From Rhodovastum atsumiense (GTDB taxonomy: Bacteria > Pseudomonadota > Alphaproteobacteria > Acetobacterales > Acetobacteraceae): a DNA stretch of 64,000 bases. This document shows, piece by piece, positions 6,750-33,630 of the stretch. Under the pieces are notes generated by a model. The model saw nothing but the letters and a program-made list of their open reading frames with translations, did no database searches and had not been told where the DNA came from. The stretch lies in the NCBI RefSeq assembly GCF_937425535.1, contig NZ_OW485601.1, forward strand, positions 5,067,501-5,131,500. Reading direction: 5' to 3'. How positions within the stretch are numbered: the stretch's first letter is position 1; each line of letters begins with the position of its first letter. The translations under genes were made by a program, and so were the position numbers.

Positions 6750-6760
6750 GGAGATATCGC

Positions 6761-7906: not shown

Positions 7907-7911
7907 TCCAC

Positions 7912-8424: not shown

Positions 8425-8556
8425 CGGCACCTTCACTTCCTGGCTGTTTCCCGAACCTGACACGGCGCCACGAGTCGATCCCGGACTTTGCCTTGCCGGC
8501 GGACAGGCTGTAGAGCCGGGTGGCAAACGATTCCCGATCCCGGCGGAGGACACGTC

Positions 8557-9330: not shown

Positions 9331-9341
9331 TCGCGCTGCCC

Positions 9342-10244
9342 CTATCGTGGCGGGGCGGTGCCGCCGGTCGCCGGACGCTGCAGCCGGTCGCCGCTGGCCA
9401 GCAGCGCCTGCGCCAGCGCCGCCGGCGGGCCACGCAACGGCTTCTGCCCGCCCAGCAGCACGAATTCGGTCTCTCCCAGGTCCGGCAGGCGCAGCGCGTG
9501 GCCCAGATCGACCAGCTCCGGCGGGATGAGGCTGAGCGCGCTGACCGCGATTCCCAGCCCGGCGAAGGCGGCGGCGCGCAACCCGCTCAGGCTGCTGCTG
9601 GTGCAGACGATGCGCCAGGGACGGCCGGCCCGCTCCAGCGTCTCCAGCGCGGTGCTGCGGGTGATGCTGGGCGGCGCATACAGGATCAGCGGCACCGGCT
9701 GCGCCGGATCGGATGACAGGCGCAGGTCGGCCCGCCCGACCCAGGCCAGGCGCTCGCGCCAGACCAGCTCCCCGCGATCTTCCCCAAGCTGGCGCTTGCA
9801 CAGCACAAGGTCCAGCTCGCCCTCGTCGAGCCGGCCGCGCAACAGGGCGCTGGTGCCCACCGTCAGCGCCAGGTCGACCCCCGGATGCAGCAGGACGAAG
9901 TCGCGCAGCAATTCCGGCAGGCGGGTCTGCACGAAATCGTCGGAGACGCCGAAGCGCAGGTGCCCGCGCAGCCGGGCGCCGCCGAAGTAATGCCGTGCCC
10001 GTGCATTCGCTTCCAGGATGCTGCGGGCGAAGCCGATCATGGCCTCGCCGTCGGGCGTCAGTACCACCGAATGGGTGTCGCGCTGGAACAGGCGCCGCCC
10101 GGCCTGCTGTTCCAGCCGGCGGATGTGCTGGCTGACGGTGGATTGCCGCAGGCCCAGCCGCTGGGCGGCATGCGTGAAGTTCCGCGTCTGGGTGACCGCG
10201 AGGAACGTTTCCAGCAGGATCGGGTCGAAGCTGCCTGTCATCAT
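9342..10244 (-). CDS. LysR-family transcriptional regulator
   Basis: 300 aa. The N-terminal winged helix-turn-helix (residues about 9-65: LLETFLAVTQTRNFTHAAQRLGLRQSTVSQHIRRLE in the usual LysR pattern) is followed by a periplasmic-binding-like effector domain. Two adjacent ATG codons (10244, 10241) are possible starts. The gene is divergent from the BASS-family transporter at 10329, with an 84-nt shared promoter region, the classic arrangement for a LysR protein controlling its neighbour. The effector is unknown. Confidence 0.9.
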   Translation of the reverse strand: MMTGSFDPILLETFLAVTQTRNFTHAAQRLGLRQSTVSQHIRRLEQQAGRRLFQRDTHSVVLTPDGEAMIGFARSILEANARARHYFGGARLRGHLRFGVSDDFVQTRLPELLRDFVLLHPGVDLALTVGTSALLRGRLDEGELDLVLCKRQLGEDRGELVWRERLAWVGRADLRLSSDPAQPVPLILYAPPSITRSTALETLERAGRPWRIVCTSSSLSGLRAAAFAGLGIAVSALSLIPPELVDLGHALRLPDLGETEFVLLGGQKPLRGPPAALAQALLASGDRLQRPATGGTAPPR

Positions 10245-10328
10245 GGACCGTGATGACAGTAAGCATGGTGTGCGCGGTTCACAATGGCCCGGGTGATTGC
10301 GATTCTGGCAGGCCAAGGAGCTGCCAAG

Positions 10329-11339
10329 ATGCCGAAACTGCCACCGCTGCGCCCCATGCTTGCCCGCGTGGGGATCGATCCCTTCCTGATCGGCCTGACC
10401 GCCATGATCGCCCTGGCCTTCGTTCTGCCGGCCCAGGGTCGCGGAGCGGATCTGGCCAGCGCGGCCTCGGGCTGGGCGATCGCGCTGCTGTTCTTCCTGC
10501 ACGGTGCCCGGCTGTCGCCGCAGGCGGCCCTGGCCGGGGCGCGGCACTGGCGCCTGCAACTGGTGATCCTGCTGTCCACCTTCGCGCTGTTCCCCCTGCT
10601 GGGGCTGGCGGCGCGGGCGCTGTGGCCCGGCCTGTTCCCGCCCGATCTCTGGGTGGGGATGCTGCTGCTCTGCCTGCTGCCCTCGACGGTGCAGTCCTCG
10701 ATCGCCTTCACCTCGATCGCGCAGGGCAACGTTCCCGCCGCGCTCTGCGCCGCCTCGCTCTCCAACCTCGTCGGCATCGTGCTGACCCCGCTGCTGACGG
10801 GGCTGGTGGTGGCGGGCAGTTCGATCGGCATCTCGACCGGCGGCGCCGTCACCATCGTCGTGCAATTGCTGCTGCCCTTCCTCGCGGGGCAACTGGCACG
10901 GCCCCGGATCGGTGGCTGGGTGCAACGCCACCGCACCCTGGTCGGCCTGGTCGATCGCAGCTCGATCCTGCTGGTCGTCTACACCGCCTTCAGCGAAGGC
11001 GTGGTCGAGGGCATCTGGCATCAGGTGGGCGCGGGCGAATTGCTGCGGCTGCTGGCCATGAGCGCGGTGCTGCTGGGCCTGGTGATGGCGGCGATGACAC
11101 TGGTGGGGCGGGCGCTTGGCTTTTCGCGCGAGGACCGCGTCGCCGTCCTGTTCTGCGGTTCGAAGAAAAGCCTGGCGAGCGGCCTGCCGATCGCGAGCGT
11201 GCTGTTCGCGGGCCATGCCACCGGGCTGATCGTGCTGCCGATGATGTTGTTTCACCAACTGCAGCTTTTCGTCTGCGCGCTGCTGGCCCGGCGCCATGCC
11301 GCGCTGGCGGCGGCGGCCTCGGTGGCGTCCGCCCCCTGA
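10329..11339 (+). CDS. BASS-like (bile acid:Na+ symporter superfamily) transporter
   Basis: 336 aa integral membrane protein with about ten hydrophobic segments. It matches the SBF-like (PF13593-type) branch: LFFLHGARLS near the first third, LLPSTVQSSIAFTSIAQGN in the middle, and FCGSKKSLASGLPIA toward the end, corresponding to the crossover helices of BASS proteins. ATG 10329 is preferred because AAGGAG lies 8 nt upstream; a longer frame starts at 10284. The substrate is probably an organic anion co-transported with Na+, but the sequence does not say which. Control by the divergent LysR protein is likely. Confidence 0.85.
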   Translation: MPKLPPLRPMLARVGIDPFLIGLTAMIALAFVLPAQGRGADLASAASGWAIALLFFLHGARLSPQAALAGARHWRLQLVILLSTFALFPLLGLAARALWPGLFPPDLWVGMLLLCLLPSTVQSSIAFTSIAQGNVPAALCAASLSNLVGIVLTPLLTGLVVAGSSIGISTGGAVTIVVQLLLPFLAGQLARPRIGGWVQRHRTLVGLVDRSSILLVVYTAFSEGVVEGIWHQVGAGELLRLLAMSAVLLGLVMAAMTLVGRALGFSREDRVAVLFCGSKKSLASGLPIASVLFAGHATGLIVLPMMLFHQLQLFVCALLARRHAALAAAASVASAP

Positions 11340-11506
11340 CGGTTCGACTGACGCGGTGGCAACGCCGCGTTGCCGGGTGTTCGCGATCGCCGTGTCGCCA
11401 TATACCCGGCTTCGGTGCCGCGCCGGTCGATGGCACCACCCCCGCCACGCGCCGCTGCCGGCCCGGCAGAAAGGTGCCGGTCGGCAACTGACAAGAGGAT
11501 GCCCCG

Positions 11507-11923
11507 ATGGATATCGTTCCGGATCGAATCGGCAAGATCGCGATCATGGCCGCGATCAGCTCGCGCGAAGAAGAGGACGCCATCAAGAAGCTGGTTCAGG
11601 AGGAAAAGCGCGTCCGGCTGGCGGTCACTTTCATCACTGGCGTGCGCACCCATGTTACCCAGGTCTTCGTCAAGTCGATCGTTGCCTGCGCGCTGCAGGG
11701 CCAGGTGATCCGCCATGCCCATAACGAGATCCACGCCGTCATCCATGCCGGGCTGGAGTGCCTGAAGGGGGTCAGCGCGGACGTGACCGCCGAATCCAGC
11801 CTGAAGCTGAAGGTGGCGGTGGCCAGCGACGGACGCTGGGTGGTCGTCGCCTGTCATGGTGAATCCGCCTTCCACCCGCTGACGAATCACGAGCGCATGG
11901 GCTTCGGCGTCATGCATCTCTGA
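11507..11923 (+). CDS. HutP-family RNA-binding regulator
   Basis: 138 aa. The C-terminal two thirds follow the Bacillus HutP pattern: an E.HA..HA.LE.LKGV helix (residues about 75-90) and a closing W..V...G.....L.....GFGVMHL segment that matches the HutP WIAVSLYG...FGVGINHI end. Bacillus HutP is a hexameric antiterminator that binds NAG-repeat RNA with histidine and Mg2+. The length is slightly under the Bacillus protein (about 150 aa). An AAGAGG ribosome site precedes ATG 11507. It sits directly upstream of a 420-nt leader and the malonate decarboxylase operon, so a role as an RNA-level switch for that operon is a reasonable inference. The ligand here is unknown. It occupies the place of the uncharacterised madY/madZ genes of Malonomonas. 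Confidence 0.75.
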   Translation: MDIVPDRIGKIAIMAAISSREEEDAIKKLVQEEKRVRLAVTFITGVRTHVTQVFVKSIVACALQGQVIRHAHNEIHAVIHAGLECLKGVSADVTAESSLKLKVAVASDGRWVVVACHGESAFHPLTNHERMGFGVMHL

Positions 11924-18607: not shown

Positions 18608-19501
18608 ATGGAAGAGCAGCAGACCATGATGGGGAAGGGGCGGGAAGCGATCGACCTGATCGTCGATCCCGGCTCCTTCGCCGAAGGCCAGGTTGGCGCC
18701 AAGAGCTTCGAGGACCCCGATTTCGGGCCGGGCGCCGTTGTCGGCACCGCGCAGCTTGATGGCCAGACCTGCACGATCATCGCCAGCGACGCCGAGGCCT
18801 TCAACGAGAAGTTCCCGGTCGTCTACGCCGGCATCATCGGCATGGAGGAAGGCTACAAGATGGCGCAGGCCGTCTATGCCACCCTCGCCGCCGATTCCGA
18901 CAAGCCGCTCGAAGGCAAGCGCCCGCTGGTGCTGATCGTCGACACCCCAGGCAACGGCCCGGGCAAGGTCGAGGAAATCTTCGGCATGAACAAGGCGACC
19001 GGCGCCTACCAGCTGGCGCTGGCGGAAGCGCGGCTGGCCGGGCATCCGATCGTCGCCATGGTGATCGGCCGCGCCATCTCCGGTGCCTTCCTCTGCCACG
19101 GGCTGCAGGCCGACCACATCCTGTCGCTCGATGCCAATTTCGGCACGATGATCCACGTGATGCCGCTGACCAGCGTCTCGCGCATCATCCGCAAGGACCT
19201 GGAGACCCTGCAGGAACTGGCCAAGGGCAACCCGGTCTTCGCCGCCGGCCCGCGCTTCTTCCATGCTCTCGGCGGGGTCGAGGAACTGGTCGACAGCATC
19301 GAGGGCATGCGTCCGGCCATCGCTCGGCACATCCAGGCGATCCGCGCGGCCAAGGCGGCCGGGCAGCAGGACACGCTCGGCCCGTGGGGCCGTGGCGCGC
19401 TCGGCGCCGACCGCAAGGGCCGCGTGGTGCGTCCGAAGGTGATGGCGCTGATGAACCAGGAGTTCGCGGCGGTCGCGGACAAGTACGCCCCGGCGCGCTG
19501 A
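18608..19501 (+). CDS. madD: Malonate decarboxylase carboxyltransferase subunit gamma
   Basis: 297 aa, MdcE family, partner of MadC. Motifs include LVLIVDTPGNGPGKVEEIFG, VIGRAISGAFLCHGLQADHI and FGTMIHVMPLTSVSRI. The C-terminus is shorter than in fused MdcDE enzymes and ends shortly after LGPWGRGALGADRKGR. CAGGAGAG lies just upstream of ATG 18608. Separate MadC and MadD genes are the rule for this system. Confidence 0.92.
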   Translation: MEEQQTMMGKGREAIDLIVDPGSFAEGQVGAKSFEDPDFGPGAVVGTAQLDGQTCTIIASDAEAFNEKFPVVYAGIIGMEEGYKMAQAVYATLAADSDKPLEGKRPLVLIVDTPGNGPGKVEEIFGMNKATGAYQLALAEARLAGHPIVAMVIGRAISGAFLCHGLQADHILSLDANFGTMIHVMPLTSVSRIIRKDLETLQELAKGNPVFAAGPRFFHALGGVEELVDSIEGMRPAIARHIQAIRAAKAAGQQDTLGPWGRGALGADRKGRVVRPKVMALMNQEFAAVADKYAPAR

Positions 19502-19525
19502 ACGGGGCAGGCGGGAGGACCGGTG

Positions 19526-20629
19526 ATGTCAGACGACGCGCTGAATGCCCTGGAACAGGCGCTGATGCTGTTCGGCAACGCGCCCACGCTCGCGGAGATG
19601 CCGCGGCGGGGGCTTGCCGAAAAAGGCATCGCCGGTCCGACCGCGGCCCATGTGATCGAAGAGGTGCATACGCCGCTCAACCTGGCTTATGTCACCTTCA
19701 CGACCGGCTCCTCGGCGTTCCAGAACATCGTCGGGGTGACGCAGGAAGAGATCCCGGACCGCTGCACGGTGGCCCGGGAGATCTTCGCGCGGCTGGGGGT
19801 GGGGCAGGGGGCGCGGATGCTCGTCACCTATCCGCCCCTGGTCAATGTCTTCTCCGCCGAGGCGCTGCGGCAATGCGGCATCGAATGGGGCTTCCTGGCC
19901 CGCTCGAGCCGCGATGCGCTGCTGGTGGCGGCCTGCCGCGAGCAGCCGCGCATCATCCTCGGCGAATCCTCGTTCCTGCGCGCGAGCCTGGAACAGGCGG
20001 CGACGCTGGGGCTCGCGGCGCATCTGCCGCGCTCCTGCCTGCTGGTGACGGCGGGCACGCCGCTGGATGAGGAGCTGCTGCCGGTCGCGCGCCGCTTCGG
20101 CTATGCGGTGCACGATCTCTATGGCTGCCAGGAATTCGGCTGGCTCACCCTCGATGGCCGGGCGCTGCGCGAGGACATCGCGCTGGTGGCCTCGCCGCGC
20201 GGCCCGGCGTACCGGGAACTGGTCGCGGGCGGGCTGCCGACCGGCGACAGCTTCCTCGTCTCGGAGTCGGGCCATGTCTGCGACCGCGAGGGCGGGATCA
20301 TCACCTACCGGCGCGAACGCACCTATCCCGAATACGAGGTGGTGGTGACGCACACCACGGCCACGGCCGCCGCGACGGTGGAGCGAGCCGCCCGTTCCAT
20401 CCTGCGCATCAAGGGGCGCGTGGTGAAGGTCGCGCCCGGGCTGGTCACCGGGGCGGCGGCGACGCGGCTGGAACTGGTGCCGGGCACGCCGGGGGCGCCG
20501 CCGCGCGCGGAGCCGCCGATCGTCATCGAGGGACCGGTGGCCACGCGGCTGTTCGATGCGCTGCTGCGGGCGCAGATGGCGTTCCAGTCGCACGCCAAGA
20601 CCGACCCGGCCTGGACGAAGCGGCGGTGA
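19526..20629 (+). CDS. madH: Acetate:malonate-decarboxylase ACP ligase
   Basis: 367 aa. In Malonomonas, MadH primes the deacetylated carrier protein with acetate and ATP so that the malonate exchange cycle can begin. The sequence has adenylate-forming (PaaK-like) features: TFTTGSSAFQN near residue 57, and a later YGCQEFGW near 200 followed by TYRRERTYPEYEV. It is shorter than typical acyl-CoA synthetases. ATG 19526 is chosen because GGGAGGA stands 7 nt before it; an overlapping GTG is at 19523. It overlaps the next gene's upstream GTG by a few bases, so the two are translationally coupled. Confidence 0.8.
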   Translation: MSDDALNALEQALMLFGNAPTLAEMPRRGLAEKGIAGPTAAHVIEEVHTPLNLAYVTFTTGSSAFQNIVGVTQEEIPDRCTVAREIFARLGVGQGARMLVTYPPLVNVFSAEALRQCGIEWGFLARSSRDALLVAACREQPRIILGESSFLRASLEQAATLGLAAHLPRSCLLVTAGTPLDEELLPVARRFGYAVHDLYGCQEFGWLTLDGRALREDIALVASPRGPAYRELVAGGLPTGDSFLVSESGHVCDREGGIITYRRERTYPEYEVVVTHTTATAAATVERAARSILRIKGRVVKVAPGLVTGAAATRLELVPGTPGAPPRAEPPIVIEGPVATRLFDALLRAQMAFQSHAKTDPAWTKRR

Positions 20630-20631
20630 CC

Positions 20632-21396
20632 ATGTTCGAGCGGCGCCACGTCCTGGCTTTCCCGACCCTGGCGGCGTTGCCCGCGCTGCTGCCGGAGCTG
20701 ATCGCGGCCCTGCCGCCGGTCATGCGCCACCGCGACATCGAGTCGCAGGTGACGCGGTTGTTCCTCACCGGGCTGGTGCCCGGCATCGTGGCGCGGCCGA
20801 CCCGGCCCTGCGGCGCCTGCCAGGGCCAGCTCGGCTTCGCCTTTCCCGTCCGCGTGGGCGAGCAGCGCGTGCGCGCCGCCGTGCTGGTCTCGCCACGGCA
20901 GGTCCGCTCCATCCTCGATCCATGGCAGGTGATGCGCGAGGCATTGGCACAGTCGGGGCCACCGCATCCGGCGCTGCCGCAGATCGCGGGGCTGGCGCGG
21001 CATTGCGGCCTGCCCGTGGGGCTGATCGGCTCGGCGGCGCTGCAGGCGGTGACCAGGCTCGGGGGCTACCTGCGCCCGGACTCCGATCTCGACATCGTCG
21101 TCGCCGCCACCCAGCCGCAAGGTCTGGAGACGTTCTGGGAAGGCATCCAGGCAATCTCCAGCCAGAACGAATGCAAAATAGATGTCGAAATTGACGTAAA
21201 TCAAAGATACGGCGTGAAGCTGGAAGAATATTGTTCTCGCAATATTTCTGTTCTTGTTAAAACGATACACAACGTTTTTGTTACAGATAAAAGCGCATTG
21301 TTTAATAACCATGTGGACCGTGAAGAAGATCGCGTATCCTCATGGCAATTTCCGGGGCGTTGCGCCCCCACAACCTTCCAACCAACGGAGCAATGA
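20632..21396 (+). CDS. madK: Phosphoribosyl-dephospho-CoA transferase (MdcG family)
   Basis: 254 aa from ATG 20632 (GTG 20626 is possible). It transfers the prosthetic group from the CitG-type precursor to Ser30 of MadE. The nucleotidyltransferase signature GSAALQ...YLRPDSDLDIVV is at about residues 137-162, as in MdcG. From about 21160 the base composition turns abruptly AT-rich, yet the coding sense continues through the family's conserved end (DVEIDVNQRYGVKLEEY...VLVKT). The last 30 or so residues extend beyond the usual end. It is 3 nt upstream of madF. The symbol follows the Malonomonas order; the biochemical role follows MdcG. Confidence 0.82.
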   Translation: MFERRHVLAFPTLAALPALLPELIAALPPVMRHRDIESQVTRLFLTGLVPGIVARPTRPCGACQGQLGFAFPVRVGEQRVRAAVLVSPRQVRSILDPWQVMREALAQSGPPHPALPQIAGLARHCGLPVGLIGSAALQAVTRLGGYLRPDSDLDIVVAATQPQGLETFWEGIQAISSQNECKIDVEIDVNQRYGVKLEEYCSRNISVLVKTIHNVFVTDKSALFNNHVDREEDRVSSWQFPGRCAPTTFQPTEQ

Positions 21397-21399
21397 GTC

Positions 21400-21609
21400 A
21401 TGGACGTTAAAGTCAAGATGCCATCGGTGATCGTCTCCCTCGAAGTCGAGGTCGGCGCCGCAGTCACCAAGGGTCAGGTCGTGGCCGTGGTCGAGGCCAT
21501 GAAGATGAAGAACAACTCGCTGGCGCCGGCCGACGGCACGGTGAAGTCGATCGCCGTCAAGGCGGGCGACCGCCTGAAGCCCGGCGGCGTGATCATGACC
21601 ATCGAGTGA
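21400..21609 (+). CDS. madF: Biotin carrier protein of malonate decarboxylase
   Basis: 69 aa, a free-standing biotinyl domain. The biotinylation motif EAMKMKNN places the modified lysine at residue 35, followed by the conserved ADGTVKSIAVKAGD half of the lipoyl/biotinyl fold. It accepts the carboxyl group from MadC/MadD and delivers it to MadB. Its size fits an isolated biotinyl domain without a long Pro/Ala linker. The co-encoded BirA and BioMNY would serve this protein. Confidence 0.93.
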   Translation: MDVKVKMPSVIVSLEVEVGAAVTKGQVVAVVEAMKMKNNSLAPADGTVKSIAVKAGDRLKPGGVIMTIE

Positions 21610-21680
21610 GATCGTGGCGGCGGGGACGGTGCCCCGTCCCCGCCGCATCACCGGAACCTCCAAATGGGGTACGTGACTTG

Positions 21681-22064
21681 GTGATTTATGGACTCGCGCT
21701 GATGGGCGGCTGCATGCTCATCGGCACCCTGGCGGGCGACCTGATCGGCTACCTGGTCGGCATCGATGCCAATATCGGCGGCGTCGGCATCGCGATGCTG
21801 CTGCTGGTGATCATCTCCCGGCGCCTGATGGACCAGGGCAAGCTCTCGAAGCTGGCCGAGGGCGGCATCATGTTCTGGAACGGGATGTATATCCCGATCG
21901 TCGTGGCGATGGCCGCGTCGCAGAACATCCTGGCGGCCTTCGGGTCCGGGGCGCTGGCCTTCATCCTCGGGCTCGCCCCCGTCGCGCTCGGCTTCCTGCT
22001 GATCCGTCCGCTCGCGGCGCTCAGCCCGAAAGAGGCCTCGGCCAAGATCGCGGAGGAAGTGTGA
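21681..22064 (+). CDS. madL: Malonate transporter subunit
   Basis: 127 aa with about four membrane helices. MadL and MadM together form the Na+-coupled malonate/H-malonate importer. GTG 21681 gives the family start VIYGLALMGGCML; TTG 21678 is next to it, and a longer frame from GTG 21606 would add an unlikely Arg/Pro-rich stretch. The end AEEV overlaps into the gap just before madM, whose ATG is 1 nt past the stop. Confidence 0.9.
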   Translation: MIYGLALMGGCMLIGTLAGDLIGYLVGIDANIGGVGIAMLLLVIISRRLMDQGKLSKLAEGGIMFWNGMYIPIVVAMAASQNILAAFGSGALAFILGLAPVALGFLLIRPLAALSPKEASAKIAEEV

Positions 22065-22065
22065 C

Positions 22066-22824
22066 ATGACCGTGCTCTATCATTTCCTTCTCGAATACCC
22101 GCTGATCACGGCCTTCGTCTTTGTCGGCCTGATCATGTGGATCTCCGGCCATCTGGGCAAGGCGACCGGTAACCGCATCCACGGCTCGGCCATCGCCATC
22201 GTGTTCGGCCTGGTCCTGGCCTATGTCGGCGGCAAGTACACCGGCGGCAAGAAGGGCATCGCCGACGTCAGCCTGTTCTCGGGCTTCGCCCTGATGGGCG
22301 GCGCGATGTTCCGCGACTTCGCCATCGTCAGCACCGCCTTCGGCGTGAAGCTGGAGGAGCTGAAGAAGGCGGGCTTGCCCGGCACCATCGCGCTGTTCGT
22401 CTCGATCGCGCTCTCGGTGGCGGTGGGTGCCGCCTTCGGCGCCGCCTTCGGCTATACGAGCCCGGTTGACATGGCCACCCTGGGTGGCGGTGCCGCGACC
22501 TTCATCGTCGGCCCCGTGACCGGCACCGCGCTCGGTGCTTCCTCCGAGGTGATTGCCCTGTCGGTCGCCGCGGGCGTGGTCAAGTCGATCGCCGTGATGA
22601 TCCTGACGCCGCTGCTGGCCAAGCCCGCCGGCATCACCACCCCGGCCGCCGCGGCCGTGTTCGGTGGGCTGATGGGCACCACAAGCGGCACAGCCGCCGG
22701 ATTGGCTGCCACCGATCCGAAGCTGGTCCCTTATGGTGCCCTCACCGCGACCTTCTACACCGGGCTGGGATGCCTGCTGGTGCCGTCGGTCGGTTACATG
22801 GTGCTCAAGGCCCTGTTCGGCTGA
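22066..22824 (+). CDS. madM: Malonate transporter subunit
   Basis: 252 aa, about seven hydrophobic segments, rich in Gly and Ala. The family pattern is seen in FSGFALMGGAMFRDFAIVSTAFGV and GGGAATFIVGPVTGTALGASSEVIALSVAAG. It is the last gene of the mad operon here. No madN-like gene follows, unlike Malonomonas rubra. A strong hairpin lies about 115 nt downstream. Confidence 0.9.
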   Translation: MTVLYHFLLEYPLITAFVFVGLIMWISGHLGKATGNRIHGSAIAIVFGLVLAYVGGKYTGGKKGIADVSLFSGFALMGGAMFRDFAIVSTAFGVKLEELKKAGLPGTIALFVSIALSVAVGAAFGAAFGYTSPVDMATLGGGAATFIVGPVTGTALGASSEVIALSVAAGVVKSIAVMILTPLLAKPAGITTPAAAAVFGGLMGTTSGTAAGLAATDPKLVPYGALTATFYTGLGCLLVPSVGYMVLKALFG

Positions 22825-22999: not shown

Positions 23000-23686
23000 A
23001 TGACCAGGATGCGGATCGAGGTTCGCTCGGTGTATCAACGCTTCGAGGCGTTCGAAGCCCTGCGTGGCATCGACCTCGTGCTGTCCGAGCGGCGAATCGG
23101 CATCGTCGGCGGCAACGGCTCCGGCAAGAGCACCTTCGCCCGCCTGCTGAACGGGCTGCTGCTGCCCAGCGCCGGCCAGGTGCTGGTGGACGGCCTCGAC
23201 ACCGCTCACGAGGGAAAGGCGGTGCGCCGCAAGGTCGGGTTCGTGTTCCAGAATCCGGACAACCAGATCGTCATGCCGGTGGTGGAAGAGGACGTGGCCT
23301 TCGGGCTGCGCGGCCTGAAACTCTCCCGCGCCGGGCGCGAGGCGCTGGTCGAATCGGTGCTCGACCGCTACGGCCTGCTGTCCCTGCGCGCCCATCCGGC
23401 GCATGCGCTGTCGGGCGGGCAGAAACAATTGCTCGCCCTGGCCGGCGTGCTGGTGACCGAGCCCGATTGCGTCGTGTTCGACGAGCCGACCACGCTGCTC
23501 GACCTGCGCAACGCGCGCATGGTGGCGCGGGTCATCGACGGGCTTGCGCAGACCGCGATCGTGGTGACCCACGACCTCGGCCTGCTCGAGCGCTTCGACC
23601 GGGTGATCGTGTTCGACGAGGGCCGGGTGGTGGCCGACGACCTGCCCGCGCCGGCGCTCGATTTCTACCGGCGGCGCATGCAATGA
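23000..23686 (+). CDS. bioM: Biotin ECF transporter ATPase
   Basis: 228 aa cytoplasmic ABC ATPase. Walker A is GGNGSGKST at residues 37-45, the signature is ALSGGQKQ near 138, Walker B is CVVFDEPTT near 158, and the switch His is in VVTHDLG. The gene is coupled to bioN by an ATGA overlap (23683-23686). ATG 23009 is a possible alternative start. The assignment to biotin rests on the operon with bioN and bioY. Confidence 0.92.
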
Positions 23687-24396
23687 GGACCGCGCCGCCC
23701 CCCCTGTCCTCCGTGTTGCACCGCCTGCCGGCGGCGGCCAAGCTGCTGGCGCTGGCCGTGGCGGGGACGGGGCTGGTGCTGGTCGAGGACTGGCGGGCGA
23801 TGCTCGCGGCCTTCGCCGGGGTGGTCCTGCTGTATCCGGTGGCGCGGCTGTCCCCGCTGGTGCCGCTGCGCCAGTTGCGGCCGCTGCTGTGGCTGCTCGG
23901 GGTACTTTTTCTCGCGCAATGGGTGATGGAGGCGTGGCAACTGGGGCTGCTGGTGGTGTTGCGCCTCGCTGCCCTGGTGCTCGCGGCTGACCTGGTGACC
24001 CGGACCACGCGTACCGAGGCGATGATCGCGACGCTGGAACGAGGGCTTGGACCCTTCGCCCGCTTCGGCGTGAACCCGGCCAAGGTGGCACTGGCGATCT
24101 CGCTGGCGCTGCGCTTCATTCCGGTGATCGCCGAGCAGGCGCGCGAGATCCGCGACGCCCAGCGCGCCCGCGGGCTTGACCGCAACCCGCTGGCGCTGTT
24201 GCTGCCGCTGATCGTCCGCACGCTGCGCATGGCCGGCGACGTCGCCGATGCGATCGAGGCACGCTCCGGCGGCGTGGAGGACGCGCCCGTGCCGTCGCCT
24301 TCCCGCAACCCCGAGTCCCGTCAACAGGAATCCCCATGTCCGCAGCCGGATTCACCACGCGCGACGTCGTTTACATTGCCCTCTTCGCTGCCCTGA
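23683..24396 (+). CDS. bioN: Biotin ECF transporter transmembrane (T) component
   Basis: 237 aa, about five membrane segments. The coupling helices typical of EcfT proteins are present in [25 protein letters not shown] (around residues 145-170), with the A-R-G motif. The start overlaps the bioM stop. The tail overlaps the beginning of bioY by 61 nt in another frame, which is unusual but keeps all three genes coupled. Confidence 0.9.
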
Positions 24397-24899
24397 CCGC
24401 GGCGCTGTCGATCTTTCCGCCTTTCGTCGTGCCCATGCTCGGCGTGCCGGTGACCGCGCAGTCGCTGGGGCCGATGCTGGCCGGTGCCGTGCTCGGCGCG
24501 CGTCGCGGCGGGCTGGCGATCCTGCTGCTGCTGGTGCTGGTGGCGCTCGGGCTGCCGCTCCTCTCGGGCGGGCGTGGCGGGCTGGGCGTGTTCTTCGGGC
24601 CAAGTGCCGGGTTCATGCTGGGCTGGGTCGTGGGCGCGGTCGTGGTCGGGGCGCTGCACGAACGCTTCTGGGCCACACTGCGGCCGGTCACTTCCTTCCT
24701 GTTCTGCGTCATCGGCGGCATCGTCGTATGCTATGCCATCGGCATTCCCTGGGTGGCGGTGGTGGCGCATCTGCCGCTGGAGAAGGTGGCGATGGGGTCG
24801 GCCGTGTTCATTCCGGGGGATCTGATCAAGGCGGGGCTTGCCGCGGCCGTTGCGGTGACGGTGCGGCGGTCCTATCCACTGATCCGTCGGGCAGCGTAA
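24336..24899 (+). CDS. bioY: Biotin-specific S component
   Basis: 187 aa, six hydrophobic segments. It is the substrate-binding membrane protein of the biotin importer. Typical BioY features: a VPVTAQSLGPMLAGAVLGARRG block near residues 38-60, LGVFFGPSAGFMLGW near 87-101, and a final IPGDLIKAGLAAAVA. No BioR palindrome (TTATnnATAA type) is seen before bioM. The function is well supported by family and operon. Confidence 0.93.
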   Translation: MSAAGFTTRDVVYIALFAALTAALSIFPPFVVPMLGVPVTAQSLGPMLAGAVLGARRGGLAILLLLVLVALGLPLLSGGRGGLGVFFGPSAGFMLGWVVGAVVVGALHERFWATLRPVTSFLFCVIGGIVVCYAIGIPWVAVVAHLPLEKVAMGSAVFIPGDLIKAGLAAAVAVTVRRSYPLIRRAA

Positions 24900-25064
24900 G
24901 GGAAGGCGAGGGCTCCGCCCTCGACCCGGCAGGGGGCAGGGGCCCCCTGCACCCCAATTCGCGCTGCGCGGCACAGAATGGGTTCCAAGGGCGAAGCCCT
25001 TGGTGGAGGTCCAGGAGGCGAAGCCTCCTGGTGGGGGGCGGGGCAACGCCCCGCCAAGGGCACC
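24900..25064. repeat. Multi-hairpin intergenic repeat, copy 1
   Basis: 165 nt made of successive short palindromes: gagggctccgccctc, gggggcaggggccccc, caagggcgaagcccttg, caggaggcgaagcctcctg and ggggcggggcaacgccccgcc. The same palindromes, in the same order with small changes, occur at 33468-33630. It looks like a REP/BIME-type mobile intergenic element that forms a comb of stem-loops in RNA. It separates bioY from the molybdoenzyme gene and may stabilise or terminate the upstream message. Confidence 0.75.
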
Positions 25065-28052
25065 ATGCCGGACGAAGCCGTGTTGTTCACTCACTGGGGC
25101 GCCTACCACGCAACGGTCGCGGAAGGCCGGCTGCTGGCGCTGGCACCGTTGCCCGGTGATCCCGCTCCCTCGCCGATCGGCCAGTCCATCCCCGGCGCGC
25201 TGGCCGATCCGTTGCGCATCCGCCAGCCGATGGTGCGCGAGGGGTGGTTGCGTGCCCGTGGCGCCAGCCGGGCGCGGCGTGGGCGCGAGGCTTTCGTGCC
25301 GGTTTCCTGGGAGACCGCGACCGCGCTGGTTGCCGATGAGATCGACCGGGTGCGACGGGTGCATGGCAACAGCGCCATCTTCGGTGGCTCCTATGGCTGG
25401 GCCAGTGCCGGGCGGTTCCACCACGCCCAGAGCCAGTTGCATCGTTTCCTCAATGCCTGCGGCGGTTTTACCGCTTCCAGCCACACCCACAGCTACGCCG
25501 CCGCCGAGGTGTTGCTGCCGCATGTGATCGGCAGCCTGGACGGGCTGGTGGGCGCGCACACGCCCTGGCCGGTGTTGCGGCGCCATACCACGCTGATGGT
25601 GATGTTCGGCGGCATGCCACTGCGCAACACGCAGGTGGCCGCCGGTGGCGTCGGCCGACATGGCATCGCCGATGCCTTGCGGGGCTGCCGCGCCGCCGGC
25701 ATGGCGTTCGTGACCATCAGTCCGATCCGTGATGACGCGATGGCGGACCTGGACGCGGAGTGGCTGGCGCCACGGCCGAACACCGACACCGCGTTGATGC
25801 TGGGGCTGGCGCATACGCTGTGGCAGGAGGGGCTGCACGACGCCGCGTTCCTGGCGCGCTGCTGTACCGGCTTTGAGCGTTTCCTACCCTACCTGACCGG
25901 GGCGGCGGACGGCCAGCCCAAGGATGCCGACTGGGCTGGCGCAATCTGTGGGCTGCCGGCGGCGGCGATCCGGGCGCTGGCCCGGCGCATGGCGGCCAAC
26001 CGCACCATGATCACGGTCGCCTGGTCGCTGCAGCGGGCTGAGCACGGCGAACAGCCGCTGTGGATGGCGATCACGCTCGCCGCCATGCTGGGGCAGATCG
26101 GCCTGCCCGGCGGCGGGTTCGGCTTCGGCTATGGCGGCAGCAACCGCGTCGGGCTGACGCCGCATCCGTTCTCCTGGCCTGCGTTGCCGCAGGGCGAGAA
26201 CCAGGTGGTGGATTTCATCCCGGTGGGACGGCTTGCCGACATGCTGCTGCATCCGGGCGAGTCCTTCGCCTATGACGGGCGCCGCCTGCGTTATCCCGAT
26301 ATCCGGCTGGTCCACTGGGCGGGCGGTAATCCGTTCCACCACCACTCCGACCTCAACCGGCTGGTGGAGGCGTGGCGCCGACCCGAAACGGTGGTGGTCC
26401 ACGAGCCATGGTGGAACCCGCTGGCCCGGCATGCCGACATCGTGCTGCCCTGCACCACTTCGGCCGAGCGCAACGACCTTGGCATCGCCACCACCGAAGG
26501 GCATCTCTTCGCCATGCGGCAACTGGTGGCGCCGGTGGGGGAGGCGCGCAGCGACTTCGCCATCCTGGCCGGCATTGCCGACCGGCTCGGCCTCGGCGCG
26601 ACCTTCACCGAAGGACGCGACGAGATGGGTTGGGTGCGCCAGCTCTACGCCGAGGCGCGCGCGCGGGCGGCGGCGCATGGGCACGATCTGCCGGACTTCG
26701 AGCGGTTCTGGCGGGAGGGCGAGGCGCGCCTGCCGACACCCACGCCGGGGCCGGACCTGCTGGGGGCCTTCCGCGCCGATCCGGATGGCGCGCGGCTGGC
26801 CACGCCGTCCGGCCGCATCGAGCTGTATTCCGAGACGATCGCCGGTTTCGGCCTGGCGGATTGTCCGGGCCATGCCACGTGGCTGCCGCCCTCGGAATGG
26901 CTGGGCGCGCCGGCGGCGGCGCGGTTCCCGCTGCATCTGGTGTCCAACCAGCCGGCGACGCGGCTGCACAGCCAGTACGACCATGGCAGCGTCAGCCGCG
27001 CCGCCAAGGTGGCGGGGCGCGAGCCGGTCCGGCTGCATCCGGCCGATGCCGCCGCGCGCGGCATCACCGCGGGCATGCCGGTGCGGCTGTTCAACGATCG
27101 CGGCGCCTGCCTCGCCGGCGCCGTGCTGAGCGAGGCGGTCATGCCGGGGGTGGTGCAGCTTGCCACCGGCGCCTGGTACGATCCCGGCCCGGACGGGCTC
27201 GACCGCCACGGCAACCCGAACGTGCTGACCCTGGACAAGGGCAGTTCCGCCCTGTCACAGGCCCCGGTCGGGCTCAGCGTCCTGGTGGATGTGGAACCCT
27301 GGCGCGGCCCGCCGTCGTCGCCCGGTGCCTTCACCCCGCCGGACATCGTGACGTCCCCGCAGCCGGAGAGCCGCATGGAGCATCCCGTCCTCGCCGCCAT
27401 CGAAAGCCGCCGTTCGGTGCGGGCTTTCCTGCCGACCCCGGTGCCGCGCGAGACCATCGCCCGGATCCTCACCGCCGCCGCGCGGGCGCCGAGCGGGGCG
27501 AATATCCAGCCCTGGCAGGTGCATGTGGTGACGGGGGCGGCGCGGGCGCGGCTCTGCGCGGCGCTGCAGGCCGCCGCCGCGGCGCCCGACCCGGAGGTGC
27601 CGGCGGAATACGACTACTATCCCCGGCAGTGGTTCGAGCCCTATCTGGGGCGGCGGCGGCAACTGGGCTGGGAGCTGTACGGCCTGCTGGGCATCGGCCG
27701 GCGCGACACCGCGGCGATGCAGCGCCAGCATCATCGCAATTTCGATTTCTTCGACGCGCCGGTGGGGGTGTTCTTCACCCTCGATCGCCGCCTTGGCGCC
27801 GGAAGCTGGCTCGATTGCGGCATGTTCATGCAGAACGTGATGGTGGCGGCGCGGGCCTTCGGCCTGCACACCTGCGCGCAGGCCGCCTTCACCAGCCACC
27901 ACCAGGTCATCCGCGCCGAACTGGGGCTGGCGGAGGAGCAGATCCTGCTCGCCGGCATGGCGCTCGGCCACGAGGACACCACCCGGCCGGAGAACGCGCT
28001 GCGCACCGCCCGCGTGCCGGTGGACGGGTTCACGACGTTTCACGAGGACTGA
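25065..28052 (+). CDS. BisC-like molybdoenzyme fused to a nitroreductase
   Basis: 995 aa from ATG 25065. Residues 1 to about 760 are a molybdopterin-guanine-dinucleotide oxidoreductase of the DMSO reductase/TorA/biotin sulfoxide reductase branch. There is no N-terminal Fe-S cysteine motif and no Tat signal, and the block GGFTASSHTHSYAAAEVLLPHV carries the serine expected to bind Mo. Family blocks such as NPFHHHSDLNRL and VSNQPATRLHSQYDHG follow. Residues 771-995 are a complete FMN nitroreductase domain (RRSVRAF, APSGANIQPW). No stop lies between the halves; the linker is only about 20 residues. A purine-rich GGAGAG before the internal ATG 27375 leaves separate synthesis of the second domain possible. 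The gene follows bioMNY, so reduction of biotin sulfoxide to biotin is an attractive role, with the flavin domain as built-in NAD(P)H donor. Domain calls are firm; the substrate is inferred. Confidence 0.8.
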   Translation: MPDEAVLFTHWGAYHATVAEGRLLALAPLPGDPAPSPIGQSIPGALADPLRIRQPMVREGWLRARGASRARRGREAFVPVSWETATALVADEIDRVRRVHGNSAIFGGSYGWASAGRFHHAQSQLHRFLNACGGFTASSHTHSYAAAEVLLPHVIGSLDGLVGAHTPWPVLRRHTTLMVMFGGMPLRNTQVAAGGVGRHGIADALRGCRAAGMAFVTISPIRDDAMADLDAEWLAPRPNTDTALMLGLAHTLWQEGLHDAAFLARCCTGFERFLPYLTGAADGQPKDADWAGAICGLPAAAIRALARRMAANRTMITVAWSLQRAEHGEQPLWMAITLAAMLGQIGLPGGGFGFGYGGSNRVGLTPHPFSWPALPQGENQVVDFIPVGRLADMLLHPGESFAYDGRRLRYPDIRLVHWAGGNPFHHHSDLNRLVEAWRRPETVVVHEPWWNPLARHADIVLPCTTSAERNDLGIATTEGHLFAMRQLVAPVGEARSDFAILAGIADRLGLGATFTEGRDEMGWVRQLYAEARARAAAHGHDLPDFERFWREGEARLPTPTPGPDLLGAFRADPDGARLATPSGRIELYSETIAGFGLADCPGHATWLPPSEWLGAPAAARFPLHLVSNQPATRLHSQYDHGSVSRAAKVAGREPVRLHPADAAARGITAGMPVRLFNDRGACLAGAVLSEAVMPGVVQLATGAWYDPGPDGLDRHGNPNVLTLDKGSSALSQAPVGLSVLVDVEPWRGPPSSPGAFTPPDIVTSPQPESRMEHPVLAAIESRRSVRAFLPTPVPRETIARILTAAARAPSGANIQPWQVHVVTGAARARLCAALQAAAAAPDPEVPAEYDYYPRQWFEPYLGRRRQLGWELYGLLGIGRRDTAAMQRQHHRNFDFFDAPVGVFFTLDRRLGAGSWLDCGMFMQNVMVAARAFGLHTCAQAAFTSHHQVIRAELGLAEEQILLAGMALGHEDTTRPENALRTARVPVDGFTTFHED

Positions 28053-28055
28053 GCC

Positions 28056-29522
28056 ATGCCAGCCGCCGGCAGCATCACCGCCCCCCTGGCGGGGCATGCG
28101 CTCCGCGCGCCGGACGGCATCGCGATCCGCTGGGAACAGGATGCGATCACCTGGGCCGCGCTGGACGGGACGGTGCATCGCCTCGCGGCGTTCCTGGCCG
28201 GGCGCATCCCGCCGGGGCGCGGCCTGGCGATGGCGCTGCCGAACGAGCCCGCGCTGTTCCTGCTGATTCTGGCCGCGATCCGCGCCGGGCGCGAGGTGCA
28301 GATCCTTGATCCTGCCTGGCCGGCGGAGACGCGGCGGGCGGTGCTGGCGCAGTTGCGTCCGGGCCTGCTGGTCGGCGCCGACGGCATCGTCCTGCCGCCC
28401 AGGCTGGGGTTTGCCGCCGTCGCCGATGCGCTCGACGCGCCCCGGGATCTCACCCGCCTGCCCGAGCCGGCTGCCGAAACGCCGTTCTATGTCGGCTTCA
28501 CGTCAGGGACGACGGGAATGCCGAAGGGATTCCGTCGTCACCAGCTGTCCTGGCTGGAGAGTTTCCGGGGCGACGACGCGATCCTGCCGATCGGCCCCAC
28601 CGATGGCGTGCTCGCGCTCGGCAGCCTGGTGCATTCCAATTTCCTCTATGCCTTCCTGCGGGCAGTGCACGCGGGCGCCACCATCACGCTGTGCCGCCAT
28701 TTCGCCGCCGGCGCGGCACGGCGCCTGCTGGATGCGGGCGCGGCCAGCGTGCTGTACGGCGTGCCCTCACAATTGCAAATGGTCATGGAGGCCGGCCGGC
28801 AGCCTTGTGCGGCGGTGCGGCTGATCTATTCCTCCGGGGCGAAGTTCCCGCCCGAGCGGCGGGTGGCGCTGGCCGCGCAGTTCCCGCGGGCGCGGTTCTG
28901 CGAATATTACGGCGCCTCCGAGACCAGCTTCATTGCCATGACCGGTCCGGAGCAGGACGCCCCGCCGGAGTCGGTCGGTCGCCCGTTCCCGGGGGTGCGG
29001 GTGACGATCCGCGACCACGACGGTACCTGCCTGCCGGAAGGGGCCACCGGCCTCGTCTTCGTCGAGAGCCCGCTGTGCTTCCTGGGCTATGCCACCGAAG
29101 CGGAAGCGACGCTGCTGCGGGCCGGCGCGGCGGTTTCGCTGGGCGATGTGGGCCGCTTCGACGCGGCCGGCTTCCTGCACATCGTCGGCCGCGCCAGCCG
29201 CATGATCATTTCCTCGGGCAAGAACATCCATCCCGAGGCGATCGAGGCGCGGCTGCAGGCGCACCCCGCCGTTGCCGCGGCGGCGGTGCTGGGGCTTGCG
29301 GATGCGCAACGCGGCGAGCGGCTGGTTGCGGTGCTGCATTGCCCGCAGGCCGTGCCGGCGCGGCGCGACCTCGTCGCCGGCCTGCGGGCGCATTTGCCGC
29401 CGCACGAGGTGCCGCAGCGCTATCTGCTGCTGCCGGAATGGAGCTACACCCCGTCCGGCAAGACCGATTTCGCCGCGATCCGCCGGCGCATCGCCGCCGG
29501 CGAGGGCGATCCGCTGTCATGA
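28056..29522 (+). CDS. Acyl-CoA synthetase/AMP-binding ligase (YhfT-like context)
   Basis: 488 aa, adenylate-forming enzyme. Motifs: FTSGTTGMPKGF (A3 P-loop, near residue 149), YYGASETSF (A5, near 286), LGDVGRFD (A7), and the C-terminal PSGKTD lysine. It begins 4 nt after the molybdoenzyme stop and overlaps the thiolase start (ATGA). A bioY gene followed by an acyl-CoA ligase and a thiolase resembles the biotin-regulated yhfU-yhfT-yhfS group of Bacillus subtilis. The acid activated is unknown: pimelate-like, a fatty acid, or the valeryl side chain of biotin are all possible. Confidence 0.85.
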   Translation: MPAAGSITAPLAGHALRAPDGIAIRWEQDAITWAALDGTVHRLAAFLAGRIPPGRGLAMALPNEPALFLLILAAIRAGREVQILDPAWPAETRRAVLAQLRPGLLVGADGIVLPPRLGFAAVADALDAPRDLTRLPEPAAETPFYVGFTSGTTGMPKGFRRHQLSWLESFRGDDAILPIGPTDGVLALGSLVHSNFLYAFLRAVHAGATITLCRHFAAGAARRLLDAGAASVLYGVPSQLQMVMEAGRQPCAAVRLIYSSGAKFPPERRVALAAQFPRARFCEYYGASETSFIAMTGPEQDAPPESVGRPFPGVRVTIRDHDGTCLPEGATGLVFVESPLCFLGYATEAEATLLRAGAAVSLGDVGRFDAAGFLHIVGRASRMIISSGKNIHPEAIEARLQAHPAVAAAAVLGLADAQRGERLVAVLHCPQAVPARRDLVAGLRAHLPPHEVPQRYLLLPEWSYTPSGKTDFAAIRRRIAAGEGDPLS

Positions 29523-30628
29523 GCGCCTGGGTGATCGCCGCCCGCCGGACCCCGGTGGCGCCGCGCCACGGTGCCTTCGCCCGGCTGGAGGCGGCGGAAC
29601 TGGCCGCGCCGGTGATCCAGGCCCTGTGCGCCGAGGCAGGGGATGCCGGTGTGGACCAGGTGATCCTGGGCAACGCGCTGTATGGCGGCGGCAATCCGGC
29701 GCGGGTCGCGGCGCTGCTCGCGGGCCTGCCGGAGACGGTGCCGGCCATGACCATCGACACGCAGTGCTGCGGCGGGCTGGACGCGGTGCTGCTGGCCGCC
29801 GCCCTGGTGTCGGCGGGGCAGGCGCGGGCAGTGATCGCCGGGGGGCTGGAAAGCTACAGCCGCGCGCCGATCCGCCAGCGCCGGCCGCGCGATCCCGCCG
29901 AGGCCCCGCAGAGCTACGCGCGTCCCCCCTTCACGCCGTGGCCGGAGCGCGATCCGGACATGATCGAGGCCGCCGCCGGGCTTGCCGCGCTGCGCGGTGT
30001 CCCGCGCTGCGGACAGGAGGACTACGCCATCGCCAGCCACAGGCGGGCGCTCGGGGCCAGGCATCCGGAGCTGGTGCCGCTGGCGGGGTTGGAGCGGGAT
30101 GCCTTCGCCCGTCCGCTGACCCGGCGTCTCTGCGCGCGCCTGCCGGTGCTGGCCGGGGATGCGGCGCACGGCGTGACCGCGGCCACCGTCGCGGTCGAGG
30201 CGGATGCGGCGGCCGCGGTGCTGGTCGTGGACGAGGCGCTGGCCCGCCGGCATCCGGGGCGGGCGCTGCGCCTGCTCGGCGGCGTGCGTGGCGCCGGCGA
30301 TCCCGTTCATCCCGCGCTGGCCCCGATCGCCGCCGCGCGGGCGCTGCTGGCGCGCTGCGAGGTCGCGGCGGAGCGGATCGCGGTCAGCGAGATCATGGAG
30401 GCGTTCGCGGTCCAGGCCATGGCGTGCCGCGACGGCATCGGCCTCGATCCGGCGCGCTGCAACCGTGGCGGCGGCGCGCTGGCCCGTGGCCACCCCATCG
30501 GCGCGTCGGGGGCGATCCTGGCGGTGCGGCTGTTCCATGAATTGCAGGCGGATGCCCCCGGTGCGGTGGGGCTTGCCGCCATCGCCGCCGCCGGCGGGCT
30601 CGGCAGCGCCCTGCTGCTGTCCGCATGA
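29519..30628 (+). CDS. Thiolase-family protein with altered active site
   Basis: 369 aa. The nucleophilic cysteine region (DTQCCGGLDAVLL, near residue 84) and the ARGHPIGASGA block with the catalytic histidine are preserved. The usual C-terminal CxGxG motif is replaced by AIAAAGGLGSA, so the second catalytic cysteine is absent, and the NEAFA block reads MEAFA. The protein may thus be a degradative thiolase variant, a condensing enzyme of another kind, or inactive. It is coupled by overlaps to the ligase before it and to the MaoC gene after it. YhfS-like context, as for the ligase. Confidence 0.82.
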   Translation: MSAWVIAARRTPVAPRHGAFARLEAAELAAPVIQALCAEAGDAGVDQVILGNALYGGGNPARVAALLAGLPETVPAMTIDTQCCGGLDAVLLAAALVSAGQARAVIAGGLESYSRAPIRQRRPRDPAEAPQSYARPPFTPWPERDPDMIEAAAGLAALRGVPRCGQEDYAIASHRRALGARHPELVPLAGLERDAFARPLTRRLCARLPVLAGDAAHGVTAATVAVEADAAAAVLVVDEALARRHPGRALRLLGGVRGAGDPVHPALAPIAAARALLARCEVAAERIAVSEIMEAFAVQAMACRDGIGLDPARCNRGGGALARGHPIGASGAILAVRLFHELQADAPGAVGLAAIAAAGGLGSALLLSA

Positions 30629-31044
30629 TCACGGTGGCGACGCCGGCGGAACTGGGGAGGTTCATCGGCCAGGAGCAGCGCAGCCCGAGTGGGCTCGTGG
30701 TCGATGCCGCGATGGTCGAGGCTTTCCTGGCCCTCTGCGGCGATGGCAACCCGATCCATCAGGGCGCGGATGCGATCGTGCCGGGCAACCTGCTGCTGGC
30801 GCAGCTACCCCGCTTCCTGCAGGCGCTGTTCCGGGTCGGGCACTGCCGGCGGAGCCTGCTCGCCGGGTATCGGGCGGTGCGCTTCCGGCGTCCGGTGCCG
30901 GTCGGTGCCTGCGTCCATCTGGCGGCGACACTGGCGGCGGTGACGCCGGCCCGCGATCTGGTGCGGGTGGAGACGGCCTGCCGGGTGCTGCATGGCGAGG
31001 CCGTCGCCCTGACCGCCGACGTCACGGATGTCTATATGGTCTGA
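30625..31044 (+). CDS. MaoC-like hot-dog dehydratase
   Basis: 139 aa. The hydratase motif is seen as FLALCGDGNPIHQGADAIVPGNLLLAQLPRF (residues about 34-65), containing the D..NP.H catalytic pair of R-specific enoyl-CoA hydratases. The start overlaps the thiolase stop. With the ligase and thiolase it gives three of the steps of a beta-oxidation-type or reverse route; no acyl-CoA dehydrogenase or 3-hydroxyacyl-CoA dehydrogenase is present nearby. Confidence 0.82.
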   Translation: MITVATPAELGRFIGQEQRSPSGLVVDAAMVEAFLALCGDGNPIHQGADAIVPGNLLLAQLPRFLQALFRVGHCRRSLLAGYRAVRFRRPVPVGACVHLAATLAAVTPARDLVRVETACRVLHGEAVALTADVTDVYMV

Positions 31045-33467: not shown

Positions 33468-33630
33468 CGGGGCGCTGCCCCGGCCCCGCCAGAGGCTCCG
33501 CCTCTGGACTCCGGCAGGGGCCATCGGCCCCTGCACCCCATTTCGGGTTCCAAGGGCCTGCGGCCCTTGGCGGAGGTGCAGGAGGCGGAGCCTCCTGCCG
33601 GGGCCGGGGCAGCGCCCCGGGCGCGGCGGT
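33468..33630. repeat. Multi-hairpin intergenic repeat, copy 2
   Basis: Second copy of the element at 24900-25064. The order is ggggcgctgccccggccccg, ccagaggctccgcctctgg, caggggccatcggcccctg with caccccat, ttccaagggcctgcggcccttgg, ggaggcggagcctcc, and a GGGGC/GCCCC-type end. The shared backbone 'aagggc..gcccttgg.ggaggt' followed by a CAGGAGG hairpin shows common descent, while stem changes are compensated so the palindromes survive. It lies between the phosphoesterase and ffh promoters. Confidence 0.75.

Follow-up and report, generated by a model that had tools for sequence, protein, structure and literature searches.

A bisC-family molybdoenzyme joined in frame to a nitroreductase within a biotin-uptake operon of Rhodovastum atsumiense

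Introduction

The S- and N-oxide reductases of the bisC family, among them BisC of Escherichia coli and the biotin sulfoxide reductase of Rhodobacter sphaeroides, are molybdenum (Mo) enzymes whose supply of electrons is described in differing ways: According to excerpts of one report, E. coli BisC relies on a relay of a thiol protein and a flavoprotein, whereas R. sphaeroides BisC is able to use NAD(P)H directly (PMC6211008), and the physiological electron donor of BisC is still called unknown in an excerpt of a 2020 review (PMC7759655). Because of this relay and the unsettled donor, a dedicated flavoprotein partner is plausible. Here we describe a gene in which a bisC-family Mo domain continues in frame into a complete nitroreductase (NTR), found among biotin-uptake genes in a 64,000-nucleotide stretch of the Rhodovastum atsumiense genome (contig NZ_OW485601.1, positions 5,067,501 to 5,131,500; hereafter, the window).

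The surrounding operon has described relatives of its own. In Staphylococcus aureus, bioY and the yhfT-yhfS pair are controlled by BirA and biotin, and the role of this type of ligase and thiolase is called putative in excerpts of the reports concerned (PMC7235819, PMC6391492). Like the BirA-controlled bioY and yhfT-yhfS of S. aureus and B. subtilis, and like the bioMNY-ligase-thiolase operon of Azospirillum sp. B510, the window combines a biotin transporter with a ligase and a thiolase; unlike them, it holds the Mo-NTR gene between bioY and the ligase, as well as a MaoC-like gene. The reading that we favor, with roughly even confidence, is that of a genuine translational fusion of two complete enzymes in a biotin-scavenging operon, in which NTR belongs to an acyl-CoA module and two activities of one salvage pathway have been joined without forming an electron chain.

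Results

A single open frame encodes two complete enzymes

The gene occupies an open frame on the forward strand, with the following parts:

25065..28052, + strand: fusion gene, bisC-family Mo domain plus NTR (open frame, translation, Pfam, NCBIfam)
25065..27350, + strand: Mo domain, ending in the motif PPDIV at its C-terminus and containing Ser143 and Tyr110 (Pfam, alignment of relatives, PDB match)
27351..27374, + strand: eight-codon junction TSPQPESR; GGAG at 27365-27368, 6 nt ahead of ATG 27375, resembles a Shine-Dalgarno site (sequence, ends of relatives)
27375..28052, + strand: full-length NTR domain with its own start codon (Pfam Nitroreductase, 5.4e-33; best PDB match 3gr3, 3.1e-66)

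A Pfam scan of the 995-residue product (995 codons from ATG 25065) places Molybdopterin_N at residues 9-45, Molybdopterin at 51-506 (E = 1.1e-51), Molydop_binding at 623-734 (E = 1.2e-25) and Nitroreductase at 779-969 (E = 5.4e-33), the last scoring 115 bits against a gathering score of 23.5 and covering profile positions 1-167 of 167. The same scan reported no Fe4S4 molybdopterin domain, and no twin-arginine (Tat) or other export leader is seen by eye at the N-terminus, which reads MPDEAVLFTHWGAY. Judged by these alignments, both halves of the fusion are full length, which bears out the initial annotation, made from the letters alone, of a BisC/DMSO-reductase-like Mo domain without an Fe-S cluster in frame with a full flavin mononucleotide (FMN) nitroreductase.

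The best NCBIfam family for the Mo part is bisC_fam (TIGR00509), with 958.5 bits; the cut-off is 1017.55, and E. coli BisC itself reaches 1094. Because TIGR00509 is the best family by far and matches over the full length, yet below its cut-off, we call the protein bisC-like without filing it as a member. It resembles bisC_fam enzymes in its full-length alignment, the absence of an Fe-S domain in the scan, the pair Ser143 and Tyr110 and the lack of a visible export leader, and differs from them in its sub-cut-off score, its 42% identity to E. coli BisC, its C-terminal nitroreductase and its location in a bioMNY operon. In an alignment of 89 rows (86 of the 89 loci given to it, plus the window, E. 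coli BisC and E. coli TorA), Ser143 is identical throughout and aligns with what we take to be the Mo ligand of DMSO reductase; Tyr110 occurs in 85 rows, being present in E. coli BisC and absent from E. coli TorA. The nearest solved structures by sequence are the Rhodobacter DMSO reductases (1eu1, E = 4.1e-213; also 1dmr), which are periplasmic respiratory enzymes. The window protein differs from them in being fused to a flavin domain and in beginning at the domain itself, whereas the 1dmr chain is matched only from residue 54.

The NTR part resembles other PF00881 nitroreductases over all 167 profile positions, with 3gr3 (3.1e-66, matched over residues 6-222) as the nearest PDB entry and NfnB (2wzv) also near, and is unlike them in having a Mo enzyme fused to its N-terminus.

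As for the start of the gene, a longer frame from 24978 was set aside: The residues it adds are the translation of a dispersed repeat (24896-25064), making 25065 the better start. This repeat, which separates bioY from the fusion gene, is of about 160 bp and palindrome-rich by eye:

24896..25064, no strand assigned: dispersed intergenic repeat (blastn copies of 82-88% identity in loci L235, L003 and L230 and at window 33494-33619)

The L230 copy comes directly after a second bisC-family paralogue, on the 3' side of that gene. Counting the fusion, the source genome (G000) has nine places with a match to the Mo part at E<=1e-40, and it therefore holds many bisC/DMSO-reductase-type paralogues.

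The junction retains the ends of both genes

Five close Mo relatives with 72-76% identity (from Pseudoroseomonas aerophila, Humitalea rosea, an alphaproteobacterial metagenome-assembled genome, Acetobacteraceae AT-5844 and genome G011) stop four or five residues past a PPEIL-like motif. The window keeps this C-terminal motif (AFTPPDIV, against AFLPPEIL in P. aerophila), and after PPDIV come the residues TSPQPESR and the NTR methionine encoded at 27375. An NTR relative in Pseudoroseomonas cervicalis likewise matches from query residue 1, at its annotated coding start. The position of the relatives' stop and the presence of NTR's own methionine therefore indicate that two whole genes were joined and that only a stop codon was lost.

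Open frames by themselves carry little weight here: Across 20 NTR relatives, the in-frame open run upstream of the first aligned residue extends from 10 to 1762 codons, and since long upstream open frames are common in GC-rich genomes, the argument for the fusion rests on the coding frame of the Mo part and on the stop that is missing relative to the five relatives. NTR relatives in long frames in G218 (1982 codons), G127 (881) and G047 (583) were rejected as further fusions, as there is no Mo match there and the upstream sequence looks non-coding by eye; in G282, NTR stands in an open frame of 567 codons.

The same junction bears on an explanation without any functional fusion, in which a very recent loss of the Mo stop, or an erroneous base in the assembled sequence, disguises two separate proteins, with NTR translated from 27375. 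NTR retains a GGAG and an ATG, the Mo part retains its full C-terminus, changing one base of the eight-codon junction could create or remove a stop, and the fusion is known from only one of the genomes searched. Against this, the source genome is assembled in 9 contigs with a completeness of 100, the other frames of the operon are open, and the frame matches that of the relatives up to PPDIV, which confines any error to a few codons. An assembly error at the junction is thus possible, but two separate proteins are, in our judgment, an unlikely account of this gene. A free form of NTR is another matter, a separate product from ATG 27375 being something that the initial annotation suggested looking for: With GGAG six bases before this ATG, some free NTR is likely to be made alongside the fusion.

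No second fusion appears among the genomes searched

Searches for a second protein with both domains yielded, among the matches listed, none in the family (150 genomes, 89 with a match), none in the genus (seven genomes including the window's, five with a match), none in a sample of the phylum (299 genomes, 37 with a match), none in the 80 loci of a contig search, and, on plasmids, none with 80% cover in 213 records. These samples overlap, and a fusion elsewhere could be missed because only the best five candidates per genome were scored in the family search and the best two in the phylum search, the family figures being those of the matches listed. A literature search, in which papers found with wider terms were judged by title, likewise found no report of a Mo-nitroreductase fusion. 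As far as sequence comparison goes, then, the fusion appears genuine and is so far known from a single genome, and its architecture is new within what was searched; the unfamiliarity expressed in the initial annotation is matched by this domain-architecture search, in which the window is the only match listed that spans both domains.

The fusion gene lies in a biotin-uptake operon of a probable biotin auxotroph

The fusion gene is embedded in an operon with the order bioMNY-[Mo-NTR]-acyl-CoA ligase-thiolase-MaoC, in which bioM, bioN, bioY, ligase and thiolase share one strand and all remaining frames are open:

23000..23686, + strand: bioM-type ATPase of an energy-coupling factor (ECF) transporter (Pfam ABC_tran, 5.2e-26; NCBIfam ECF_ATPase_1, 1.3e-60, under its cut-off)
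23683..24396, + strand: bioN-type ECF transmembrane protein (Pfam CbiQ, 1.4e-16, on 23686-24333; start by eye, with an ATGA overlap with bioM)
24336..24899, + strand: bioY, biotin-binding subunit of the ECF transporter (Pfam BioY, 2.3e-35)
28056..29522, + strand: AMP-forming acyl-CoA ligase, which we take to be YhfT-like (Pfam AMP-binding, 4.9e-50; best NCBIfam NF005797/PRK07638, 298.8 bits, under the cut-off of 518)
29519..30628, + strand: thiolase, presumably YhfS-like (Pfam Thiolase_N, 1.4e-29; TIGR01930, 243.1 bits, over the cut-off of 240.55; NF005212/PRK06690, 229.3 bits, under its cut-off)
30625..31044, + strand: small MaoC-like protein (Pfam MaoC_dehydratas, 6.7e-4, under the gathering score)

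A gap of 165 bases, holding the dispersed repeat, separates bioY from the fusion gene; only three bases separate the latter from the ligase, and the thiolase and MaoC-like genes each overlap the preceding gene by four bases. A BioR-type operator, for which we assume the motif TTATNNATAA, was rejected near bioM: The window holds three one-mismatch matches (21281, 40813 and 44623), none of them upstream of bioM. Directly upstream of the operon, at 18608-22824, are malonate decarboxylase genes (gamma subunit and mdcG), madL and, by eye, madM.

The source genome has no bioB match over the cut-off, its best candidate reaching 85.7 bits against 225; this candidate is HydE, the [FeFe] hydrogenase maturase (L235 1243-2487, minus strand), which scores 285.1 bits against its own cut-off of 254.6. 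More generally, bioB over the cut-off is found in none of 15 genomes with a bioM-bioN-bioY locus (the window's included) as opposed to all three with a lone bioY, in a count that leaves out the bioY genome G507. Two genomes of the window's genus do have bioB over the cut-off. Gene content thus points to the source bacterium as a likely biotin auxotroph, and the link to biotin sulfoxide first proposed from the Mo domain alone gains from this context (a bioMNY operon in a genome without bioB over the cut-off) a stronger footing than it originally had, though as a matter of genomic setting.

Similar transporter operons occur elsewhere. A bioMNY locus accompanied by the ligase-thiolase pair, with neither Mo nor NTR beside it, is annotated on plasmid pAB510c of Azospirillum sp. 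B510, and tblastn locates the same arrangement in Microvirga sp. VF16, Shinella sp. PSBB067, G410, G366 and G338; in G469 the pair lies beside bioMNY on the opposite strand. The MaoC-like gene is common to the operons of the window and Microvirga VF16. Besides the window's, 19 bioM-bioN-bioY loci were read, and none of them holds a relative of the Mo part. The window's ligase is matched at E<=1e-60 in none of the others among 250 genomes of the order, and at E<=1e-55 in nine of the other 384 genomes sampled from the class.

Close relatives of the Mo domain also occur in acyl-CoA clusters

Elsewhere, close relatives of the Mo part keep other company, as read from their gene neighborhoods. In Acetobacteraceae locus L038, Pfam identifies an IclR regulator, a MaoC hydratase, the bisC-family gene, two CoA-transferase subunits and BKACE; L051 has the same layout (MaoC by Pfam, the others by eye), the cluster lying around 4200-11600 in these two loci, and L039 holds the Mo gene, a short-chain dehydrogenase/reductase (SDR) and BKACE. 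Among 80 Mo-relative loci, there were no NTR, BioN or BioY matches, and the ATPase, ligase and thiolase matches near these relatives are only 24-43% identical; biotin genes beside Mo relatives were therefore set aside as a pattern.

Since L038, L051 and L039 are acyl-CoA clusters without biotin genes, the Mo part could be no biotin enzyme at all: It could serve acyl-CoA catabolism as a reductase of S- or N-oxides and have come into the operon by chance. The setting argues against such an accident, which we consider quite improbable: The Mo part is flanked by bioY and the ligase in an operon for biotin uptake, and no bioB match in the genome exceeds the cut-off.

Related nitroreductases accompany acyl-CoA enzymes in genomes without a BisC-type match

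Relatives of NTR supply the main argument against reading this domain as an electron donor. In another alphaproteobacterial genus (g142), four genomes (G482, G578, G716 and G709) carry bioY-bioM-bioN-[NTR-ligase]-thiolase, NTR and ligase sharing a single frame:

L183 6749-8902, L185 6879-8981, L263 4084-6135, L264 6270-8351 (-): NTR continuing in frame into the acyl-CoA ligase, with bioN on one side and thiolase on the other, in four species of g142

Compared with the G578 protein, the other three fusions show 45-57% identity. As in the window, an NTR of the same family is fused to a neighbor within a biotin operon; unlike the window's, which is joined to the Mo enzyme in front, the g142 NTRs are joined to the ligase behind, in genomes without a BisC-type match. 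Two further genomes (G356 and G704) have NTR, ligase and thiolase side by side as separate genes, and the stretch read there contains no bio genes; the NTR of G356 groups with those of G482 and G578. In total, six of the 25 genomes of g142's order have NTR with ligase and thiolase, and a BisC-type match at E<=1e-60 was found in none of these six compared with four of 15 others of the order (the four least complete of the 25 were left out; G709 is 86% and G716 92% complete).

Plasmids extend this association. Of 235 records with NTR matches, 13 loci were read, and in five of them an acyl-CoA gene on the same strand adjoins NTR: On Salipiger profundus pTPRO5, NTR is fused to a 4HBT thioesterase domain (L243 4995-6050) and adjoins a thiolase, an SDR and an enoyl-CoA hydratase; an acyl-CoA synthetase adjoins NTR in Paraburkholderia sp. 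PGU19 and on Aminobacter pBAM1, HMG-CoA lyase and acyl-CoA dehydrogenase on Aminobacter pUSP2, and an AMP-binding protein in P. sprentiae. Gene neighborhoods thus indicate that the NTR family accompanies acyl-CoA enzymes often, not always, and also where BisC is not seen.

These observations bear directly on the function first proposed for the fusion, a self-sufficient flavo-molybdo reductase in which electrons pass from NAD(P)H to FMN in the NTR domain, on to the Mo centre and finally to biotin sulfoxide or other S-oxides. The covalent linkage of Mo and NTR would suit such an enzyme, and so would an operon for biotin uptake in a genome whose bioB matches all stay below the cut-off. However, the idea that NTR feeds the Mo centre is weakened by the presence of NTR in the ligase/thiolase module of six genomes that show no BisC-type match, four of which have it fused to the ligase. 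The five Mo relatives of 72-76% identity end without NTR, and no NTR match occurs in any of the 80 Mo loci. Neither the joint, eight residues long, nor the homodimeric state of nitroreductases by itself places FMN near Mo, and the AlphaFold model gives the NTR part no confidence (residues 764-995 fall below pLDDT 50, no aligned relatives having entered the model for this part). The premise that BisC-type enzymes need a separate donor also holds unevenly in the excerpts available, the relay of E. coli BisC and a donor still described as unknown speaking for it and the direct use of NAD(P)H by R. sphaeroides BisC against it (PMC6211008, PMC7759655). Taken together, a self-sufficient reductase appears improbable, and it is most likely, judging from gene context, that NTR has a task of its own in the acyl-CoA module; a second task in the window beyond that module is possible.

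Discussion

We most likely see in this gene a sulfoxide-repair enzyme and an acyl-CoA-linked flavoenzyme that were joined by the loss of a stop codon, each retaining its own reaction. In the salvage pathway that we propose, BioMNY would import biotin together with oxidized or shortened biotins, and the Mo domain, which would be cytoplasmic, would reduce biotin sulfoxide or a similar S-oxide. The ligase would form the CoA thioester of the biotin side chain, on which, or on its unsaturated form, the FMN- and NAD(P)H-dependent NTR may act (its substrate is a guess), and the MaoC-like protein and thiolase could then complete the pathway. The covalent link would unite two activities of this one pathway, with free NTR probably also supplied from ATG 27375.

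Several observations weigh against this proposal of two joined salvage activities. On the side of the Mo enzyme, the domain is equidistant from E. coli BisC and TorA, at 42% identity each, and six of 11 bioMNY genomes outside g142's order have a BisC-type gene, located away from the operon. The operons that are nearest by their ligase (G410 and Microvirga) have neither NTR nor Mo, and 12 further Acetobacteraceae genomes also lack bioB over the cut-off, bioMNY not having been sought in each singly. As for NTR, those of G482, G578 and G356 share only 40-49% identity with that of the window, and the g142 and window NTRs group together in one tree (70/81 support) and apart in another that holds a distant outgroup. 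Eight of the 13 plasmid NTR loci have no acyl-CoA neighbor on the same strand (Haematobacter has convergent ones, the other seven none), and a search of 20 NTR loci from the family, limited to relatives of the proteins that the window's operon encodes, yielded no bio genes and no thiolase, with a ligase match in two loci.

Were the fusion a one-polypeptide NAD(P)H-flavin-Mo biotin sulfoxide reductase after all, it would recycle oxidized biotin right after import by BioMNY and would make a nitroreductase-type flavoprotein the donor of a BisC-type enzyme. Under the reading of two joined salvage activities as well, the locus brings together, in one operon of a likely biotin auxotroph, the question of the BisC donor and that of the job of transporter-linked ligases and thiolases, and the NTR-ligase fusions found elsewhere suggest that a nitroreductase-type flavoenzyme may work with CoA thioesters in biotin salvage.

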